Shown here one piece after another: positions 9,499 to 62,328 of a DNA stretch of 64,000 nucleotides. The notes under the pieces are model-generated. The model saw only the letters and a list, made by a program, of their open reading frames with translations. It was not told the DNA's origin and did no database searches. The stretch covers positions 62,001 through 126,000 of the forward strand of contig NZ_PDJQ01000001.1 of the NCBI RefSeq assembly GCF_002563855.1, read 5' to 3'. Origin of the DNA: Tepidiforma thermophila (GTDB taxonomy: Bacteria > Chloroflexota > Dehalococcoidia > Tepidiformales > Tepidiformaceae). Both the position numbers and the translations under genes were made by a program. Every line of letters starts with the position of its first letter. Within the stretch, counting starts at the first letter, position 1.

Positions 9499-10922
9499 GC
9501 GGGGGCTCCGGGGTGTGCCGGTTCGAGGATAGCGGCGAGGACGGCTTCGCGGATTTCGTTGCCGGGCTCTTCGAAGGCGGCGAAGGGGATGGCGGGGTCG
9601 ACGGGGGCGGGCTCGGCGCCGTCGCGCTCCCAGGCGGCGGCCTCGCGGGCGAGGGCGACGAAGACGCTGCAGGCCTCGGGGCAGGGCGGGGAGCCGGGAG
9701 CCGGGAGCGGGGAGCCGGGAGCGGGGAGGGAGGAGAGGGGCCAGGCGGGGGTGCGGATGCAGCGGCCGCAGAGGATGTCGCGGAGGACGCGGCGGCCGCG
9801 CCCGGAGAGGGAGCGGGCGCTCTCGTAGCGGCCGGACTGGCGTTCGAGGACCTCGTCGAGGGGGACGATGCGGAGTTCGCCGGCGCGGGCCTGCCGCTCG
9901 TGGACGGTGGCGAGGGGGTAGACGGCTTCGACGACGGCTTCCGCGGTGCAGTCCTCGCCGGTGCGGACGAACCAGCCGCCGGGGAGGCCGCGTGCGCCGG
10001 GGAGCGGCCGGTAGCGGCCATCTTCGCCGATGCGGACGTGGCGGCGGACCGCTTCGGGGTCGGGCGGGAGTTCGCGGACGGGTTCGCCGGGTCCGCAGAC
10101 CCGGCCGTCCTCAATGCGGAGTTCGCCGATGACGCGGGGCAGCGGGGCGGGGGCAGGCCGGGCGGGGCGAGCGGAGGCGGCGGAAGGGGGGAAGGCGGTG
10201 AGGGCCTCGCGGGCGAGTTCGCGGACGACCGCGGCGAGGGCGGGGTGGGTGCCGACTGGCGGGGTGTAGTGGACGACGCGGCCGCCGCGGCGGGTCTCGG
10301 GGCCGTCGAGGGCGAGGTCGGCGGGGATAGTCTCGCCGACGTGCCAGCCTTCAGCGATGAAGAGCGGGACGACGAAGAGGCGGTCGGCGCGGAACCGTTC
10401 GAGCATGGTGAGCATGCCGGGCTCCTGGTCGATGAAGGCGACGCCGCACTCGGCGAAGAGGGCGCGCCGGGCGACGAGGTCGGCCATGGCGTAGACGTTC
10501 TTCTCGGACTGGGAGTCGCGGCGGGTGCCGTGGCCGAGGACGACGAGGGCGTCAGCCGGGCCGGCGCCGGCTTCGCGGGCGCGTTCGATGATGACGTCGG
10601 CGAGGCGCGGATGGGTGCCGACGGGCGGGGTATAGCGGATCCGCTGGCCGGCGCGGCGGGTCAGCGGACCGTCGAGGCGCATTTCGCGGGGCACGACCGT
10701 GCGGGTGAAGTAGCCGGTGGAGATGAAGATGGGGACGACGACGACCTCGGGGTCGGTGACGGCGTCGAGGGCGAGGGCGAGGGACGGCTCCTCCTTCCAG
10801 AGGGCGACGGAGACGGCATCGAAGTCGCCGGAGGTGCGGAGGGCGGCGGCGAGGCGGTGGAAGGGCTCGCTCGAATCTGCGTTGAGGTGGGAGCCGTGGC
10901 CGGCGAGGATGAGGTGGGTCAT
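9495..10922 (-). CDS. CbiX/SirB-type sirohydrochlorin chelatase with DR2241-like Fe-S domain
   Basis: 475 residues from ATG 10922. Residues 1-125 (LILAGHGSHLNADSSEPFHR) and 135-250 (LVVLGHGTRRDSQSEKNV) are two CbiX/SirB repeats, each with the metal-binding GHG motif. The remaining part resembles the Deinococcus DR2241 type: a VIGELRIEDGRV beta domain followed by a four-cysteine cluster site (LCGRC, then CPEAC). It would insert Fe or Co into sirohydrochlorin. Between the two cysteine pairs lies a Pro-Ala-Gly-Ser repeat encoded by a G-rich minisatellite (9690-9735), an odd insertion. It overlaps sirC and hemL by four bases each. Confidence 0.88.
   Translation of the reverse strand: MTHLILAGHGSHLNADSSEPFHRLAAALRTSGDFDAVSVALWKEEPSLALALDAVTDPEVVVVPIFISTGYFTRTVVPREMRLDGPLTRRAGQRIRYTPPVGTHPRLADVIIERAREAGAGPADALVVLGHGTRRDSQSEKNVYAMADLVARRALFAECGVAFIDQEPGMLTMLERFRADRLFVVPLFIAEGWHVGETIPADLALDGPETRRGGRVVHYTPPVGTHPALAAVVRELAREALTAFPPSAASARPARPAPAPLPRVIGELRIEDGRVCGPGEPVRELPPDPEAVRRHVRIGEDGRYRPLPGARGLPGGWFVRTGEDCTAEAVVEAVYPLATVHERQARAGELRIVPLDEVLERQSGRYESARSLSGRGRRVLRDILCGRCIRTPAWPLSSLPAPGSPLPAPGSPPCPEACSVFVALAREAAAWERDGAEPAPVDPAIPFAAFEEPGNEIREAVLAAILEPAHPGAPA
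9690..9735. repeat. GGGAGC-type minisatellite inside the chelatase gene
   Basis: On the plus strand GAGCCGGGAGC and GAGCCGGGAGCGGG units alternate four times in about 45 bases. On the coding (minus) strand they give Leu-Pro-Ala-Pro-Gly-Ser repeats between the two cysteine pairs of the Fe-S site. The same motif recurs outside genes at 56731-56746 and 59632-59655, next to the larger repeat arrays. Confidence 0.75.
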
Positions 10923-55400: not shown

Positions 55401-55602
55401 GGCGGCGCCGCCACATGAGGGTGTCGTAGCCGTAGGTGACGGCGTAGGCGAACGCACCGACGGCGAGGCCGCCCGGCACGCCAAGCCAGTGGGAGAACCA
55501 CGTGTCGGCGGCGATGATGCCGATGCCGGCGCCCGCGAGGAAGGAGAGGAAGGCCGTGCGGCGACGCTCGATTTCGAAGCGCTCGCGGAGCGGGTCGGGC
55601 AT
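55390..55602 (-). CDS. Small two-helix membrane protein
   Basis: 70 residues from ATG 55602, with TACACT six bases upstream. After a charged start ([15 protein letters not shown]), two membrane helices follow ([20 protein letters not shown] and [18 protein letters not shown]), then a basic WRRRHGR tail. Its last ten bases overlap the moaC start. Function unknown. Confidence 0.6.
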
Positions 55603-55608
55603 GGGGAG

Positions 55609-55614
55609 AGTGTA
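55609..55614 (-). promoter_or_regulatory. -10 hexamer TACACT, leaderless promoter
   Basis: TACACT on the minus strand ends six bases before ATG 55602 of the small membrane protein, so it probably also serves moaC. Confidence 0.5.
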
Positions 55615-55672
55615 CGCGATGGGGCGGTGCAGGGGTGTGGCCGGCGATGCCGGCAGCCGATGTTTGTGAGGG

Positions 55673-56614
55673 ATGAGGGTTCGTGTCCGGCTGCCGATGC
55701 GGGTATCGCACGCGGCGCGGGTGATGCTGGCGGGCACGCTGGTGGCCAGTGTGGCGGCAGTGGTCACTGCGCAGCAGCCGCGCGGGACAGAGGCGGGCGG
55801 CGACGCTGGCTCCTCGGCGGCTGCGGGGGAGCCGGCCGCCCGGGCGGGCGCAGCCGCCGGATGGCTGCCTCTGCCCTCGCCGACGCCGACCCTGACGCCG
55901 GCGCTGCACACGGAGGAGGGAGCGGTGGAGGTGCCGGGTTCGAACGCGCTGCCGGGGGCGGAGGTGGCGCAGGCGGCGGTGAGCCGGTTCCAGCTGCCGC
56001 TGCGGGCGTGGAGCCGGGTCACCGACCGGTACGGGGCGACGAACCGGGGGCCGGGCCGCATTCACGGCGGGATCGACCTTGCGCTGGAAGGGCTGAGCCG
56101 GTCGCCGGTGTACAGCGCGTGCACGGGGACCGTGGCGACGACCGACTATTCGTCGGCGTACGGGTACCACGTGATTGTGGACTGCGGCGACGGGTGGTCG
56201 ACGCTGTATGCGCACCTGAGCCAGGTGCTGGTGAAGCCGGGCGAGGCCGTGAACAACGACGTGGTGCTGGGAATCACGGGGAGTTCGGGATTCTCGACGG
56301 GGGAGCACCTGCATTTCGAGATTCGCTGGCAGGATACGCCGGTCAATCCCGAGGACTACCTCGACTTCAAGATCCCGCCAGGGACGCCACTCTCGGATGG
56401 GCCGCTGTGGTTCCCGGGGGCCGGCGGGGGCGCGAAACCAGCGCCGGCCGCACCGACGGCGACGCCGACGCCGACCGAGACGCCGACGCCGACGAACACG
56501 CCGACGGTCACGCCGACACCGACGATTACGCCGACGCCGACGTGGACGCCGACGCCCACGCCGACGCCCCGTCCGCCGACGCGGACGCCGACGCCGCTGC
56601 CCCGGGCGTACTAA
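55673..56614 (+). CDS. Secreted M23 family metallopeptidase with Thr-Pro repeat tail
   Basis: 313 residues. N-terminal signal/anchor helix (about 13-33), a linker, then the M23 domain (110-235): HGGIDLAL (His131, Asp135), [17 protein letters not shown] (His181) and [12 protein letters not shown] (His212, His214), a complete zinc site. The last 60 residues are [14 protein letters not shown]-type repeats with no membrane anchor. It would cut peptidoglycan cross-links outside the cell. The 53-bp repeat array begins three bases after the stop. Confidence 0.93.
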
Positions 56615-56617
56615 GCG

Positions 56618-56723
56618 GGGAGGAGGGAGCCCCGCCCGGCCTCACTGCCCCGCCGGGGGAGGAAGGATAAGGGAGGAGGGAGCCCCGCCCGGCCTCACTG
56701 CCCCGCCGGGGGAGGAGGGATAT
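56618..56723. repeat. Tandem repeat array A, two 53-bp units
   Basis: Two copies (56618-56670 and 56671-56723), nearly identical; differences are confined to the last bases (GGAAGGATAA against GGAGGGATAT). Each unit runs GGGAGGAGGG, AGCCCCGCCC, a short variable part, CTGCCCCGCCGGGGG, GGAGG. GGGAGCCGGGAGCC minisatellite follows at 56731-56746. The region 56615-56816 holds no gene. Confidence 0.9.
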
Positions 56724-56816
56724 GGGAACAGGGAGCCGGGAGCCGGGGGCGGGTGGTAGGCTGGGGGCGGCCGGCGGGATGGTGCGCCGGCGGAATCTGT
56801 TCTTGGGAGCAGGCCT

Positions 56817-58160
56817 GTGGCTGGAATTGAGCGGCAGTATGAGCTCGTTGTTATCGGCAACGGGGCGGCGGGCGACAACATCGCCCGGACGCTCGGGCGG
56901 CAGGGCCGGAAGGTGGCGCTGGTGGAGAAGGCGCACCTGGGCGGCGAATGCCTGAACGACGGCTGCGTGCCGAGCAAGGCGCTGATCGAGATTGCGCGGG
57001 AGGCGCGCCGCCACCCGATTTCCTGGACGGAGGCGCTGGCGCGGGTGCATGCGGTGCAGCTGCTGGTCCGCGGCAACGACCCCGGCGGCGGCTTCGACCG
57101 CGACGGGGTGGACCTGTACTGGGGCGAGGCGCGGTTCCTCGCGCCCGGCCGGGTGGCGGTCGGCGATGACGTGCTGGTTGCGCCGGACGTGGTCGTGGCG
57201 ACGGGCACAGAGCCGGGGCTGCCGCCGATCCCGGGGCTGGCCGAAGCGCGCCCGCTGACGAACCGGACGATCTTCCGGGTTGCGCAGCTGCCGCGCCGGC
57301 TGGCGGTCATCGGCGGAGGGCCGATCGGGCTGGAGCTGGGGCAGGCGCTCCACCGGCTCGGGAGCGAGGTGACGCTGTTCGAAGCGCTGGACCGGATCGC
57401 CGCGACCGAGGAGCCAGAGGTGTCGCTGGAGCTGCAGCGGATCTTCGAGGCGGAGGGCATCCGGGTCGTCACCGGCGCGAAGCTGGCGCGGGCGGAGCGG
57501 CTCGCCGATGGCACGGTGGCACTCGAGACGGCCGACGGCCGGTTTGTGGTCGACGACGTGCTGGTCGCGGCAGGGCGGAAACCGGTCATCCCGGCGGGGC
57601 TGGCCGAGCTGGGGCTGGCGCGCGACAGCCGGGGGTTCATTGCCATCGAGCCGTGCGGGCGGACGAGCGTACCGGGGACGTGGGCGGCCGGCGACGTGAC
57701 GGGCAAGTTCCAGTTCACGCACTACGCTGCGTACCAGGCGCACCACATTGCGAAGCACATCGCTGAGGGGGTGTGCGAACCGATCCCGGACGCGATTGTG
57801 CCGTGGGCGATTTTCACCGACCCGGAGATTGGGCACGCCGGGATGACGGAGGCGCAGGCGCGGGAGCGGGGGCTGGCGGTGGCGACGGGGATGCTCGCTG
57901 CACGGGAGCTGGACTGGTTCCGGACGACGGGGCAGGTGGAGGGCTTCGCGAAGGTGGTGGTCGACGCGGAGACGGGCGCGCTGCTGGGGGCGCACTTCCT
58001 CTGCGCGCGGGCGAGCACGCTGGCCGGCGAAGCCTGCCTTGCCATCCAGCACGGGCTGACGGACCGGCAGGTTGCGGGCACCATCCACCCCTACCCGACG
58101 GCGGGCGAACTGTTCCGGTGGGCCTGCGCGCGGGCGGTCTCGGGGCGGCAGCGGGGGTAA
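56817..58160 (+). CDS. FAD-dependent NAD(P)-disulfide oxidoreductase
   Basis: 447 residues, GTG start at 56817. FAD site YELVVIGNGAAGDNIARTLG, redox-active disulfide Cys45/Cys50 in GGECLNDGCVPSK, NAD(P) site RLAVIGGGPIGLELGQALHR, and the second FAD motif TWAAGDVTGKFQFTHYAAY. The C-terminal His-Glu pair is in TIHPYPTAGELFRWA. Close to dihydrolipoamide dehydrogenase and mercuric reductase-like enzymes; without lipoyl-complex genes nearby, the substrate is uncertain. Confidence 0.93.
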   Translation: MAGIERQYELVVIGNGAAGDNIARTLGRQGRKVALVEKAHLGGECLNDGCVPSKALIEIAREARRHPISWTEALARVHAVQLLVRGNDPGGGFDRDGVDLYWGEARFLAPGRVAVGDDVLVAPDVVVATGTEPGLPPIPGLAEARPLTNRTIFRVAQLPRRLAVIGGGPIGLELGQALHRLGSEVTLFEALDRIAATEEPEVSLELQRIFEAEGIRVVTGAKLARAERLADGTVALETADGRFVVDDVLVAAGRKPVIPAGLAELGLARDSRGFIAIEPCGRTSVPGTWAAGDVTGKFQFTHYAAYQAHHIAKHIAEGVCEPIPDAIVPWAIFTDPEIGHAGMTEAQARERGLAVATGMLAARELDWFRTTGQVEGFAKVVVDAETGALLGAHFLCARASTLAGEACLAIQHGLTDRQVAGTIHPYPTAGELFRWACARAVSGRQRG

Positions 58161-58184
58161 TTGCGCGGAGCGGGCGTTCGCGGC

Positions 58185-58190
58185 TACGCT
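58185..58190 (+). promoter_or_regulatory. -10 hexamer TACGCT, leaderless promoter
   Basis: TACGCT ends seven bases before ATG 58198 of the YprB-like gene, with no ribosome-binding site between. Confidence 0.4.
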
Positions 58191-58197
58191 CGCACAC

Positions 58198-59412
58198 ATG
58201 TTCGAACGGGATGCGCAGGGGCTGCGGGAGCGGCTCCGGGCTGCGCTGCACCAGCCGGTCCGGCGGGATACCGGGGCGTTCGACCGGAGCGTGACGGAGC
58301 GGGCCGACCTTTCGCGGTTGGGGGGCCGGTGGTTCGAAACGCCGCTGGGGCCGGCGTACGTGATTGAAAGCGTGTACGATGCCGGGCATTACCACGGTGA
58401 GGTTCCGCTCCGGCGGGCGCTGGCGCTGCCGCTCGGGCGGCTGGCGCAGCAGGTGCGCGATGCTCGGCTGGCGGAGCTGGAGCCGGCGCGGCTGCGGTTC
58501 GTGGACACGGAGACGACCGGGCTGGGCGGGGCAGGGACGATGGTGTTCCTCTGCGGCGTGGCGCGATTCGAGGGGACGGAGCTGCGGCTGCGGCAGTACC
58601 TGCTGCCGGGGCCGGAGTACGAGGGCGGGCTGCTCGGCGGACTGGGGGAGGAGCTGGAGGAGGCGGGCGGGCTCGTGAGCTACAACGGCAAGGCGTTCGA
58701 CATCCCAGCGCTGGAGACGCGGTACGTGCTCGCGCGGATGCGGCCGCGGCTGCGCGACCTGCCGCACCTCGACCTGCTGCACCCGAACCGGCGCCTCTTC
58801 AAGGGGGCGTTCAGCTCACACCGGCTGGCGGTGGTGGAGCGGGAGCTGCTGGGATTTGAGCGGGAGGACGACTGCCCGTCGGCGGAGGTGCCGGAGCGGT
58901 ACCGGTGGTTCGCGCGGACGGGCGACCCGACGCACATTCTGCCGGTGCTGCGGCATAACGCGTGGGACGTGCTCTCGCTGGTGGCGCTGGCGGCGTATTT
59001 GGGGTCATCGTGCGATGACCCGGGCCGGCCGCTGCAGGCGGCGCGGGCAGCAGCGTACGCGGGCGACTGGCTGGAGGCCGCGAGGCGGTACGAGGCGGCG
59101 ATTGCGCAGGGGCTTCCGCGGGCGGAGCGGCTGGAGGCGCTGGAGCGGGCGGCGCGGGCCTACCAGAAAGCGGGGGCGTGGGAGCAGGCGGCGGCGTGCT
59201 GGGAGCGGCTGCTGGCGGAGCCCAGGTCGCGGCGGGTGGCGCCGTACGTGGAGCTGGCGAAGCTGCGGGAGCGGCGGCTCGGGGACCGCGCTGGGGCGCT
59301 GGCGCTGATGGAGGAGGTGGTGGCGCTGGCGGAGCGAGGACTGGTGCGGCCGGGGAGCGGGGAGTACGGGATGGAGGCGCTGCGGCGGCGGCTGGAACGG
59401 CTTGGGGGATGA
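58198..59412 (+). CDS. YprB-like ribonuclease H-fold protein with TPR-like tail
   Basis: 404 residues. Residues 95-275 are a DEDD exonuclease-like RNase H domain (COG3359): LRFVDTETTGLGGAGTMVFL with the first Asp and Glu, GGLVSYNGKAFDIPALETRY, LPHLDLLHPNRRLFKG and HILPVLRHNAWDVLSLVALA with the last Asp. Residues 290-400 are TPR-like helices (AGDWLEAARRYEAAIAQGL). It probably trims RNA or single-stranded DNA. The repeat array B starts at its stop codon. Confidence 0.9.
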   Translation: MFERDAQGLRERLRAALHQPVRRDTGAFDRSVTERADLSRLGGRWFETPLGPAYVIESVYDAGHYHGEVPLRRALALPLGRLAQQVRDARLAELEPARLRFVDTETTGLGGAGTMVFLCGVARFEGTELRLRQYLLPGPEYEGGLLGGLGEELEEAGGLVSYNGKAFDIPALETRYVLARMRPRLRDLPHLDLLHPNRRLFKGAFSSHRLAVVERELLGFEREDDCPSAEVPERYRWFARTGDPTHILPVLRHNAWDVLSLVALAAYLGSSCDDPGRPLQAARAAAYAGDWLEAARRYEAAIAQGLPRAERLEALERAARAYQKAGAWEQAAACWERLLAEPRSRRVAPYVELAKLRERRLGDRAGALALMEEVVALAERGLVRPGSGEYGMEALRRRLERLGG

Positions 59413-59656
59413 GGGAGGAGGGGGCCCCGCCCGAGCCCCTGCCCCGCCGAGGGAGGAGGGAGGAGGGATGAGGGAGCCCCGCACCGCCGCCCTGCCCCGC
59501 CGAGGGAGGAGGGATGAGGGAGCCCCGCACCGGCGCCCTGCCCCGCCGAGGGAGGAGGGAGGAGGGGGCCCCGCCCGAGCCCCCTGCCCCGCCGGGGGAG
59601 GAGGGAGGAGGGAGGAGGGAGGAGGGATGAGGGAGCGGGGAGCGGGGAGCGGGATA
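59411..59656. repeat. Tandem repeat array B, four 46-52 bp units plus G-rich tail
   Basis: The landmark GCCCCGC occurs at 59424, 59476, 59522 and 59568 (spacings 52, 46, 46). Each unit ends CTGCCCCGCCG(A/G)GGG, then GGAGGAGGG as in array A, followed by GGAGGGAGGAGGGAGGAGGG and three GGGAGC units (59632-59655). The 278 bases between the YprB gene and the convergent crotonase contain only this. Strongly purine-skewed, capable of G-quadruplex formation on one strand. Confidence 0.9.
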
Positions 59657-59690
59657 GCGTCGCTCCCGGCTCGCTGACGCGGCGGGCGGG

Positions 59691-60551
59691 TTATTCGAAT
59701 TCGGGGGTTTTGTAGAAGGGGAAGAGGTCGGGCAGGTCCTTTGAGACGGACATGGTGAAGTTGGGTTTGCGCTTTTCGAGGAAGGCGGCGACGCCCTCTT
59801 TGACATCAGGGCTGGCGCCCATGATGAGGATGCCGCGGGAGTCGGCCATGTGCGCTTTCATCGGGTGGTCGGCGACGAGCCCGCGCCACAGGAGCTGGCG
59901 GCTGAGGGCGACGGAGACGGCGGAGGTGTTGTCGGCGATTTCGCGGGCGAGGGCATAGGCGGCGGGCAGCAGCTCTTCGGGCGGGTGGACGGAGCGGACG
60001 AGGCGGCCGCGGAGCGCCTCCTGGGCGTCGAAGACGCGGCCGGTGGCGACCCACTCCATCGCCTGCTGGATGCCGACGGCGCGGGGGAGGAACCAGGAGC
60101 TGGCGGCCTCTGGGACGATGCCGCGCCGGGCGAAGACGAAGCCGAAGCGGGCGTTTTCGCTGGCGAGGCGGACATCCATGGCGAGGGTCATGGTCACGCC
60201 AACGCCGACCGCCGGGCCGTTGATCGCGGCGATGATTGGCTTCTTCAGTTCGAAGATACGGAGGGTGACCATGCCGCCGCCGTCGCGGTACTCGCGGATG
60301 TCGGCGGGGCGGCCGCGGGCCCCGGCATCGAAGGTGGAGGGCCCGGCAGAGAGGTCGGCGCCGGCGCAGAACGCGCGGCCGCGGCCGGTGACGACGATGA
60401 CGCGGACGGCGTCGTCGGCGTCGGCTTCGTCGAAGGCGGCGATGAGCTCGCGCTGCATGGTGGCCGTGAAGGCGTTGAGCTGCTCTGGGCGGTCGAGGGT
60501 GATGGTGAGGATACCGTCGGAGAGTTCGGTTGCGATGTGTTCGTAGGGCAT
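59691..60551 (-). CDS. Enoyl-CoA hydratase/isomerase family protein
   Basis: 286 residues from ATG 60551. Crotonase fold: LDRPEQLNAFTATMQRELIA, GRGRAFCAGADLSAG, AINGPAVGVGVTMTLAMDVR. The hydratase Glu of the GGGxE motif is Thr here, but Glu is kept in RRGIVPEAASSWFLPRAVG, as in enoyl-CoA isomerases and related enzymes. It lies convergent to the YprB gene across repeat array B. Confidence 0.92.
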   Translation of the reverse strand: MPYEHIATELSDGILTITLDRPEQLNAFTATMQRELIAAFDEADADDAVRVIVVTGRGRAFCAGADLSAGPSTFDAGARGRPADIREYRDGGGMVTLRIFELKKPIIAAINGPAVGVGVTMTLAMDVRLASENARFGFVFARRGIVPEAASSWFLPRAVGIQQAMEWVATGRVFDAQEALRGRLVRSVHPPEELLPAAYALAREIADNTSAVSVALSRQLLWRGLVADHPMKAHMADSRGILIMGASPDVKEGVAAFLEKRKPNFTMSVSKDLPDLFPFYKTPEFE

Positions 60552-60593
60552 GGAGGGGATTTTGGGGAGGCGGCGCACGAATGTCGAACGATA

Positions 60594-60619
60594 TGACGTG
60601 CTACACTGGTGATACGTCA
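60594..60619. promoter_or_regulatory. Inverted repeat TGACGT / ACGTCA around a TACACT -10
   Basis: TGACGT (60594-60599) and ACGTCA (60614-60619) are exact mirror halves 14 bases apart; TACACT (60602-60607), a -10 form used elsewhere in the window, lies between. The element is in the gap between the crotonase and helicase starts, oriented for the helicase. Confidence 0.5.
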
Positions 60620-60626
60620 CGTTGTG

Positions 60627-60667
60627 TGCGGCCCGCCGGGTGCGCCCGGGAGCTGGCAGGGGCCGCA
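60627..60667 (+). promoter_or_regulatory. Structured 5' leader of the helicase mRNA
   Basis: Outer stem TGCGGCCC (60627-60634) with GGGCCGCA (60660-60667), inner stem CCGGG (60636-60640) with CCCGG (60645-60649). It lies just downstream of the predicted start point and about 85 bases before GTG 60751, unlike the leaderless neighbours. Confidence 0.4.
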
Positions 60668-60750
60668 GCGGATGTCTTCATTTTCTTGACGCGATGTATT
60701 CCGCCGGTTTCCCTGCGGGGAGAGAACGAGCCGGCGGCGAAGAACAGGAC

Positions 60751-62328
60751 GTGAAACTGACCAGGCTGATCGACACGATTGCGCGCCCCTTCCGGCGGAC
60801 TGCCGGCGAGGAGGGCGCCCCCTCTCCAACCATCCATTCCCTCCCATCTCCATCCATCAATGGCAATGCGGCCGAACCTGCCGCCCCGGCGGCCCGCGAA
60901 CAGGCTGCGCGCGGGGCATCGCCGGGGGCGCGGCGCCCGAGCCGGCTGGCGAGCGCGAACGGCCGCTCAGGGGCAGGAGCGGCTGCAGCGCCGCGCCAGC
61001 AGGCGGCTTCGCCCGGGCCGGCAGGTCAGAGCGACGCGCAGGCCGGCGGCGCACCTTCGCGGCGGAAGCGCCGGCGGCGCGGTCGCGGCACGGGTGCGGC
61101 GCAGGCTGCTCCCGGCGAGGCGCGGCAGAGCCGCCCGCCGGCGCTGGCTCCGATTTCGGAGGCGTTCCGCGCGCTGGGGGTCGATGCGACCGGGCTGGAG
61201 GCGATTGCGGCGCTGGGCTTTACGGAGCCGACGCCGATCCAGCGCGAGGCGATGCCCCGGCTGTTCGCGGGCAGCGACGTTGTTGGGCTGGCGCAGACAG
61301 GGACCGGGAAGACGCTCGCGTTCGGGCTGCCGCTCGCGCGGACCATCGACCCGGAGGCCCGCGAGGTGCAGGCGATTGTGCTCGTGCCGACGCGCGAGCT
61401 GGCGAAGCAGGTGCGCGAGGTGATGGACCACCTCGCGCTTTTTTACGGGTTAACGGCGTGGGCCCTGACGGGCGGAAGCCGGGTGCAGACGGACATCGAC
61501 CGGCTGTCGCAGGGCGTCCACGTGGTGGTCGGGACCCCGGGGCGGGTGATCGACCACATCAAGCGGGGGACGCTGTCGCTGGCGAAGGTGCGGTTCGTGG
61601 TGCTGGACGAGGCGGACCAGATGCTCGACATCGGGTTCGCGCGGGATATTGACTACATCCTGCGGCATGCGCCGAAGGAGCGGCAGACGGCGCTGTTCAG
61701 CGCGACGATGCCCGAGAGCATCGGGCGGCTGGTGTGGCGGTACATGCGGAACGCGGAGCGGGTGGCGGTCGACCCGGAGCAGCGGACGGCGGAGGGCGTC
61801 GAGCAGTACTACTGCGAGGTGGCGGAGCGGGACAAGCTGCGGGCGCTGCAGTACCTGTACGAAATGCGCGGGCTGGGGCGGACGCTGATTTTCTGCAACA
61901 CGAAGATCGGCGTGGACCGGCTGACGGCGGCGCTGAACGCGGCCGGGGTGCCGGCCCAGGCGATCCACGGGGACCTGCGGCAGTCGCAGCGAGACCGGGT
62001 GATGGCCGATTTCCGGGCGGGCCGGCTGGAGTTCCTGGTGGCGACGAACGTTGCGGCGCGGGGGCTCGACATCCCGGACATTGAAGACGTGGTGAACTAC
62101 GACGTGCCGCAGAACCCGGAGGAGTACATCCACCGGATCGGGCGGACGGCGCGGGCTGGCCGCCGGGGCTGCTCGTACACGTTCGTGAGCGAGTGGGACG
62201 TCCCCGCGTGGGATGCGATCGTGCGCGAGGTGGGCGAGGGCGTGGTGCAGTACCTGCCGGTGCCGGCGCGCTGGGACATCGAGGAGCCGGTCGCGGCCGG
62301 GTCGGGCGAGGCGGCGGGCGGGAGCTGA
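60751..62328 (+). CDS. DEAD-box RNA helicase
   Basis: 525 residues from GTG 60751; in-frame ATG 60694 would add 19, and neither has a good ribosome-binding site. Residues 15-125 are Ala/Pro/Arg-rich and disordered, ending in a basic RRKRRRRGRG patch. The helicase core has the Q motif LGFTEPTPIQREAM, Walker A LAQTGTGKTLAFGL, VVLDEADQMLDIGF, SATMP, and YIHRIGRTARAGRRG. It unwinds RNA duplexes, for example in ribosome assembly or RNA decay with PNPase. Confidence 0.95.
   Translation: MKLTRLIDTIARPFRRTAGEEGAPSPTIHSLPSPSINGNAAEPAAPAAREQAARGASPGARRPSRLASANGRSGAGAAAAPRQQAASPGPAGQSDAQAGGAPSRRKRRRRGRGTGAAQAAPGEARQSRPPALAPISEAFRALGVDATGLEAIAALGFTEPTPIQREAMPRLFAGSDVVGLAQTGTGKTLAFGLPLARTIDPEAREVQAIVLVPTRELAKQVREVMDHLALFYGLTAWALTGGSRVQTDIDRLSQGVHVVVGTPGRVIDHIKRGTLSLAKVRFVVLDEADQMLDIGFARDIDYILRHAPKERQTALFSATMPESIGRLVWRYMRNAERVAVDPEQRTAEGVEQYYCEVAERDKLRALQYLYEMRGLGRTLIFCNTKIGVDRLTAALNAAGVPAQAIHGDLRQSQRDRVMADFRAGRLEFLVATNVAARGLDIPDIEDVVNYDVPQNPEEYIHRIGRTARAGRRGCSYTFVSEWDVPAWDAIVREVGEGVVQYLPVPARWDIEEPVAAGSGEAAGGS

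Follow-up and report, generated by a model that had tools for sequence, protein, structure and literature searches.

Do the two nearly identical 53-bp units behind an M23 peptidase gene of Tepidiforma thermophila reflect a local event, or do they belong to a dispersed family, and if so, what governs where its copies lie and how they are oriented? In the window (the whole 64,000-nucleotide stretch analysed, C1:62001-126000 of the 2743337-bp genome), unit 1 (56618..56670, + strand) and unit 2 (56671..56723, +) begin 3 nt beyond the end of the M23 gene (55724..56614, +) and are identical at 51/53 positions, with mismatches at unit positions 47 and 53 only; the two nearly identical units of the preliminary description are thus confirmed. 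A unit of this array, array A, consists of a purine block, a C-rich core (CCCCGCC...GCCCCGCC), and a second purine block, and a heptamer-like tail (GGGAACA GGGAGCC GGGAGCC; 56724..56753, +) follows the pair; TRF reports a period of 53 with 2.3 copies at 56618-56737 (score 212). The adjacent M23 gene is itself repetitive at its 3′ end (56453-56596), where CCGACG-type hexamer repeats encode a repetitive tail; alignment identity of the gene end (117204-118628) to a close relative, G001, is only 85%.

A dispersed family with a composite grammar

Array A is followed by genes for a pyridine nucleotide-disulphide oxidoreductase (DLD-like; 56817..58160, +) and an RNase_H_2 exonuclease-like protein (58198..59412, +), at whose stop codon array B (59413..59655, +) starts, with an enoyl-CoA hydratase/isomerase gene (59691..60578, −) on its other side. 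Array B has four core-bearing units spaced about 46-53 bp apart and then a GGGAGNN heptamer tail; its grammar is that of array A, and the kinship proposed earlier for the two arrays thus holds. The window also contains a heptamer-only array of the same family, (GGGAGCC/GGGAGCG)n without cores (9686..9740, +), which is the first heptamer run listed on the contig (genome 71689-71728).

A BLAST search of the T. thermophila genome with the 53-bp unit returned 97 rows, 84 of which, including all 81 at E ≤ 0.05, fall within 33 array segments spread over 27 intergenic regions; segment limits were set by hand from the BLAST rows, and the other 13 rows (E 0.135-3.06, each isolated) were dropped. The supposition of a dispersed repeat family is thereby borne out, since units stand in tandem at several intergenic loci that are not linked. 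Read on the purine strand, an array alternates GGGAGNN heptamer blocks, in which NN is GA, AA, CT, CC, CG, or others, with C-rich cores that mostly start CCCCGC and end in GCCCCGCC or CGCCCC. A regular expression finds 110 cores, of which 86 are 25-27 nt long; a looser, earlier expression gave 128 matches, heptamer tails among them, whose letters are 64% C. In 59/80 cases the purine block between successive cores has a length divisible by 7, such that the arrays combine a 7-bp period with 7-bp length steps. Cores are often similar inside one array and different between arrays and between species. GGGAGNN triples number 180 and 264 on the two strands of the genome, and two very long heptamer-only runs (~60 copies each) lie beside short arrays at genome 367594-368018 and about 576340-576770.

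The arrays are rich in G4 motifs, with 95 in 6978 bp of arrays versus 63 in 327017 bp of far stretches; 58 of the 95 are on the array (purine) strand and 37 on the opposite strand. The GC-rich self-complementary blocks first noted in the units do not stand out as structure, because single-stranded DNA folds of the unit, array A, and three further arrays do not improve on dinucleotide shuffles (eight folds, z −0.61 to +2.49, DNA parameters). Rfam gave no match over window positions 55500-61000.

Arrays surround a putative origin and point toward it

We place the T. thermophila replication origin at ~569 kb (~568.9 kb), as suggested by rpmH, yidC, parAB, and parS. Sites were sought with consensus sequences for parS, the DnaA box, and KOPS. 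There are five parS-like sites within 3 mismatches, all at 568730-569335 between yidD and yidC, with rpmH, parA, and parB close by; rnpA and yidD were identified near this cluster by eye. Most bacteria have parS and par operons within the origin domain (PMC7022226). The GC skew changes sign at the parS cluster, and forks leaving ~569 kb would run co-directionally with the 16S gene, the atp operon, a mur/fts cluster, and 352/604 genes called with a small custom script rather than a published caller. Against this placement, the ftsK gene and one operon are oriented against its forks. The dnaA gene, at genome 940545, is separated by about 372 kb from the parS/rpmH cluster, while DnaA boxes (TTWTNCACA) show no cluster, either among the 9 matches genome-wide or among 81 matches with ≤1 mismatch in sampled stretches, where no 4 fall within 600 bp. 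We also considered the skew flip at ~560 kb as the terminus, following the usual rule of a G-rich leading strand, with the arrays as a terminus-centred KOPS-like system; we rejected this because the parS cluster, rpmH, yidC, and parAB lie at the flip and because of the gene co-direction.

Relative to the inferred origin, the arrays are nearly all origin-near and mostly origin-pointing. Twenty-six of the 27 array regions lie within 0.52 Mb of it (p=2e-10), in a zone that makes up 38% of the genome, and the purine strand runs 5′ to 3′ toward it in 21/22 single-orientation regions (p=1.1e-5). By segment, 27/33 point to the origin; the six that point away are all <190 kb from it, five of them having an oppositely oriented segment in the same region and the sixth (region 685660) having heptamers on the other strand too. 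Heptamer pairs in sampled stretches give 452 toward the origin and 16 away in T. thermophila, and 219 toward and 21 away in G001. The origin cluster of G001 lies at 1296-1297 kb, and unit matches extend from 846 to 1988 kb with the same strand switch. Samples of T. flava contain heptamers at 640-1738 kb, most of them + ahead of a skew switch near 1.14 Mb and − beyond it, and a further pair at 40-48 kb.

An explanation of array orientation by the neighbouring genes is not supported. All segments are intergenic, apart from overlaps of 2 and 20 nt between two of them and a gene call, and 24/33 start ≤60 nt from a gene edge. The array regions comprise nine ++, nine −+, five +−, and four −− types, resembling other regions of at least 100 bp in the zone, and array orientation is independent of that of the flanking genes, whose directions do not predict it. 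We also rejected the idea that the zone exists because intergenic gaps are larger close to the origin: at distances above 0.6 Mb, an array is present in 1/42 sampled regions of at least 150 bp.

Of the two strands, the one that carries the arrays is rich in G on both arms, and the arrays themselves have a GC skew of +0.13 on it. Chromosomal GC skew is about ±0.2 and remains close to 0.2 as far as about 0.9 Mb from the origin, as computed from samples totalling 771 kb of the 2743 kb, many of them picked for containing arrays; third-position skew tracks the arm of the chromosome, whichever strand a gene is on. If the origin at ~569 kb holds, the leading strand appears to be C-rich, the opposite of the usual rule as given in the SkewDB paper (PMC8941118). 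The skew of G001 is also C-rich on the inferred leading strand, and the T. flava samples appear consistent. Among the literature matches listed, which mostly concern mitochondrial or gene-level skew, none described whole-chromosome inverted GC skew in a bacterium by its title or the start of its abstract, a statement about those matches and not about absence in print; the terms 'skew' and 'origin of replication' do not occur in the available part of a Tepidiforma paper (PMC10284905). Should the origin be right, a C-rich leading strand would confront theories of GC skew with an unusual exception from nature.

Array sites persist while their sequences change

We compared the arrays with G001, in which long aligned DNA blocks are mostly 85-95% identical to T. 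thermophila. The comparison covers 22 orthologous windows representing 21/27 regions; one of the other six is a breakpoint region. Heptamer pairs are present in 22/22 G001 site windows and cores in 17/22, with a common core type in 2/22; the coreless sites are array A, 174k, 250k, 576k, and 1013k. At the array A site, G001 has no 53-bp unit, only the heptamers GGGAGCG, GGGAACA, and GGGAGCA. T. flava and G004 carry GGGAGTT/TTGGAGG-type heptamers at this site, where, upstream of the DLD gene, an extra GC-rich inverted repeat (GCGGGGCTCCGTCCCCGC) also stands amid the heptamers; heptamers were not seen in these two genomes at site B, behind the exonuclease gene. Copy number at the same locus thus varies between relatives, each species being represented by one genome. 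Judged from these sequences, array sites last while the array sequence turns over. The earlier suggestion of recent change fits these differences in core sequence and copy number among closely related species, and in place of a purely local event, with no other copies and identical arrays everywhere, we find further copies in the genome and relatives that differ.

Within the genus, heptamer triples on both strands total 444 in T. thermophila, 341 in G001, 617 in G002 (taken as T. flava), 358 in G004, 1 in G003 (72% complete), and 2 in G005, the last two having 0-1 triples per strand. Across the order, matches at E ≤ 1e-5 occur in 6/38 genomes. G012, of another genus, has a short array with heptamers and a C-rich core beside GCGAGTT heptamers; another genome, G035, has no heptamers in 15 sampled stretches, and its skew is weak. 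An exact-pattern scan of public genomes returned 64 stretches, one of which is T. flava and the other 63 of which have one match each.

Array sequence lies at the ends of an origin-spanning inversion

T. thermophila and G001 differ by one inversion that spans the origin. The T. thermophila breakpoints fall at 180281|180701 and 931302|931452, and both intervals contain array sequence, with long, near-perfect (TCATCCC)n runs at about 180500-180690 and 931285-931465. These runs are inverted relative to the preceding array, with GAGAGCATCTC or GAGAGCTTCTC in between. In G001, the junction at 928804|928825 directly adjoins an array; at 1614016|1614265, only the ends of aligned blocks were observed. 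Two breakpoints within arrays are unlikely by chance because array-bearing regions make up 0.5% of the genome, and the association concerns a single inversion event. The ends of an inversion symmetric about the origin are here found to carry repeats; such rearrangements occur in many bacteria, and their substrates are often unknown.

Likeness to known repeat systems

Mycobacterial MIRU-VNTRs, minisatellites of about 50-100 bp, are dispersed among intergenic sites and vary in copy number, and the Tepidiforma arrays resemble them in dispersal, intergenic position, and variable copy number; we know of no heptamer scaffold or origin polarity in MIRU-VNTRs. KOPS, SRS, and AIMS are short G-rich single octamers that point from origin to terminus and become denser near the terminus. 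The arrays share with them short G-rich motifs in one main orientation per replication arm, and T. thermophila has an FtsK/SpoIIIE gamma domain (PF09397); unlike these octamers, the Tepidiforma motifs form long, origin-near arrays that point toward the inferred ~569 kb origin, as the 27/33 segments do. REP/BIME sequences are dispersed intergenic GC-rich palindromic hairpins, and the arrays are likewise dispersed, intergenic, and GC-rich, although none of eight folds shows a palindromic stem-loop clearly better than shuffles.

A parallel in heptamer organization is provided by the TAACTGA direct repeats, which are found in Beggiatoaceae, Cyanobacteria, and Bacteroidetes and are also species-specific intergenic heptamer arrays whose strain differences are mostly 7-nt steps (PMC4679880). 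The same paper describes them as mostly forward and just before a start codon, and reads them as post-transcriptional sites; in a Microcystis sample, the sets between stop codons all share one chromosomal orientation, a pattern whose generality its authors would like to establish (PMC4679880). The Tepidiforma arrays differ in having arm-dependent orientation, GC-rich purine heptamers, and an interleaved C-rich core, and they are not confined to a forward orientation directly before start codons. Borg elements also have pervasive intergenic tandem repeats in two-replichore genomes; they are archaeal and extrachromosomal, about half of their repeats lie within genes, and the text consulted contains no statement on repeat polarity (PMC11208441).

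A replication-polarized minisatellite and its alternatives

With moderate confidence, we propose that the arrays are a composite, rapidly evolving minisatellite, mostly non-adaptive, with growth linked to the direction of replication. Heptamers and whole units would gain and lose copies through slippage or unequal exchange, while neighbouring units would homogenize each other and spread along the array. The purine, G4-prone strand would be the leading-strand template on both arms, and heptamer runs on that template may gain copies more readily; the polarity bias would then arise because purine runs in this orientation slip and grow more than those in the opposite one. Arrays on opposite arms would therefore be inverted repeats, and recombination between them could flip the origin region symmetrically with polarity kept. 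As a guess, the zone limit near 0.5 Mb may reflect an effect of copy number or repair near the origin. Several observations speak against parts of this proposal. Strong skew continues to about 0.9 Mb, yet arrays end near 0.52 Mb, which counts against a slippage bias; a single grammar at 27 sites requires more than local slippage; heptamer retention at 22/22 sites could indicate constraint rather than neutrality; and a G4-strand bias must contend with motifs on the non-array strand as well (37 versus 58).

Some of these same observations would suit an alternative that we regard as possible, if unlikely, namely that the arrays are functional polar signals of the origin domain, with a nucleoid, partition, or translocase protein that reads heptamers or core as direction marks and loads at, or steers along, each arm. 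The best argument for it is that the zone ends where skew continues; it also draws on the sharpness of the zone around parS, the single main polarity per arm, the retention of 22/22 sites despite sequence turnover, the same zone and polarity in G001 and, by samples, T. flava, and an FtsK with a gamma domain (PF09397 at 1475042-1475227, E 1.7e-17). It is weakened by the near lack of heptamer triples in G003 (72% complete) and G005, by the five coreless sites in G001, by core sequences that differ from site to site, and by arrays that point opposite to KOPS-type motifs if the origin is at 569 kb. A more specific version, to which we give slightly less credence, makes the arrays a self-renewing compass of the origin macrodomain, in which a protein would read GGGAG polarity over about 1 Mb around parS and wrongly oriented or out-of-zone arrays would be lost; recombination between arms would be tolerated because it preserves polarity.

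We think it improbable that polarity is a mere by-product of base skew, with a G-rich purine repeat landing on the G-rich strand. Such a reading accords with an array strand that is G-rich on both arms; however, skew is no weaker at 0.6-0.9 Mb from the origin, a distance at which we find just 1/27 regions, and the array strand itself is C-rich in the cores, which is why the skew of the array strand stays below that of much surrounding DNA (about 0.2). More doubtful still is a role in transcription punctuation, as terminators or insulators in the gaps between genes: all segments do lie between called genes, most of them starting close to a gene edge, but the arrays ignore gene orientation, 9/27 regions are divergent promoter regions, hairpins are at shuffle level with DNA parameters, and Rfam has no match in 55500-61000. 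RAYT transposases prefer a GGAG tetranucleotide, and a REP/BIME-kind element moved by such an enzyme would suit dispersed intergenic copies in which GGAG adjoins a GC-rich block, but is very improbable given eight folds with no fold signal, tandem copies with length steps of 7, and coreless G001 sites that contain heptamers rather than being empty.

The arrays observed, and the minisatellite that we favour to explain them, connect the way a repeat points both with the direction of replication and with a limited zone surrounding the inferred origin. Close genomes in which the same sites differ in sequence allow a direct test of whether repeats grow with a strand bias.
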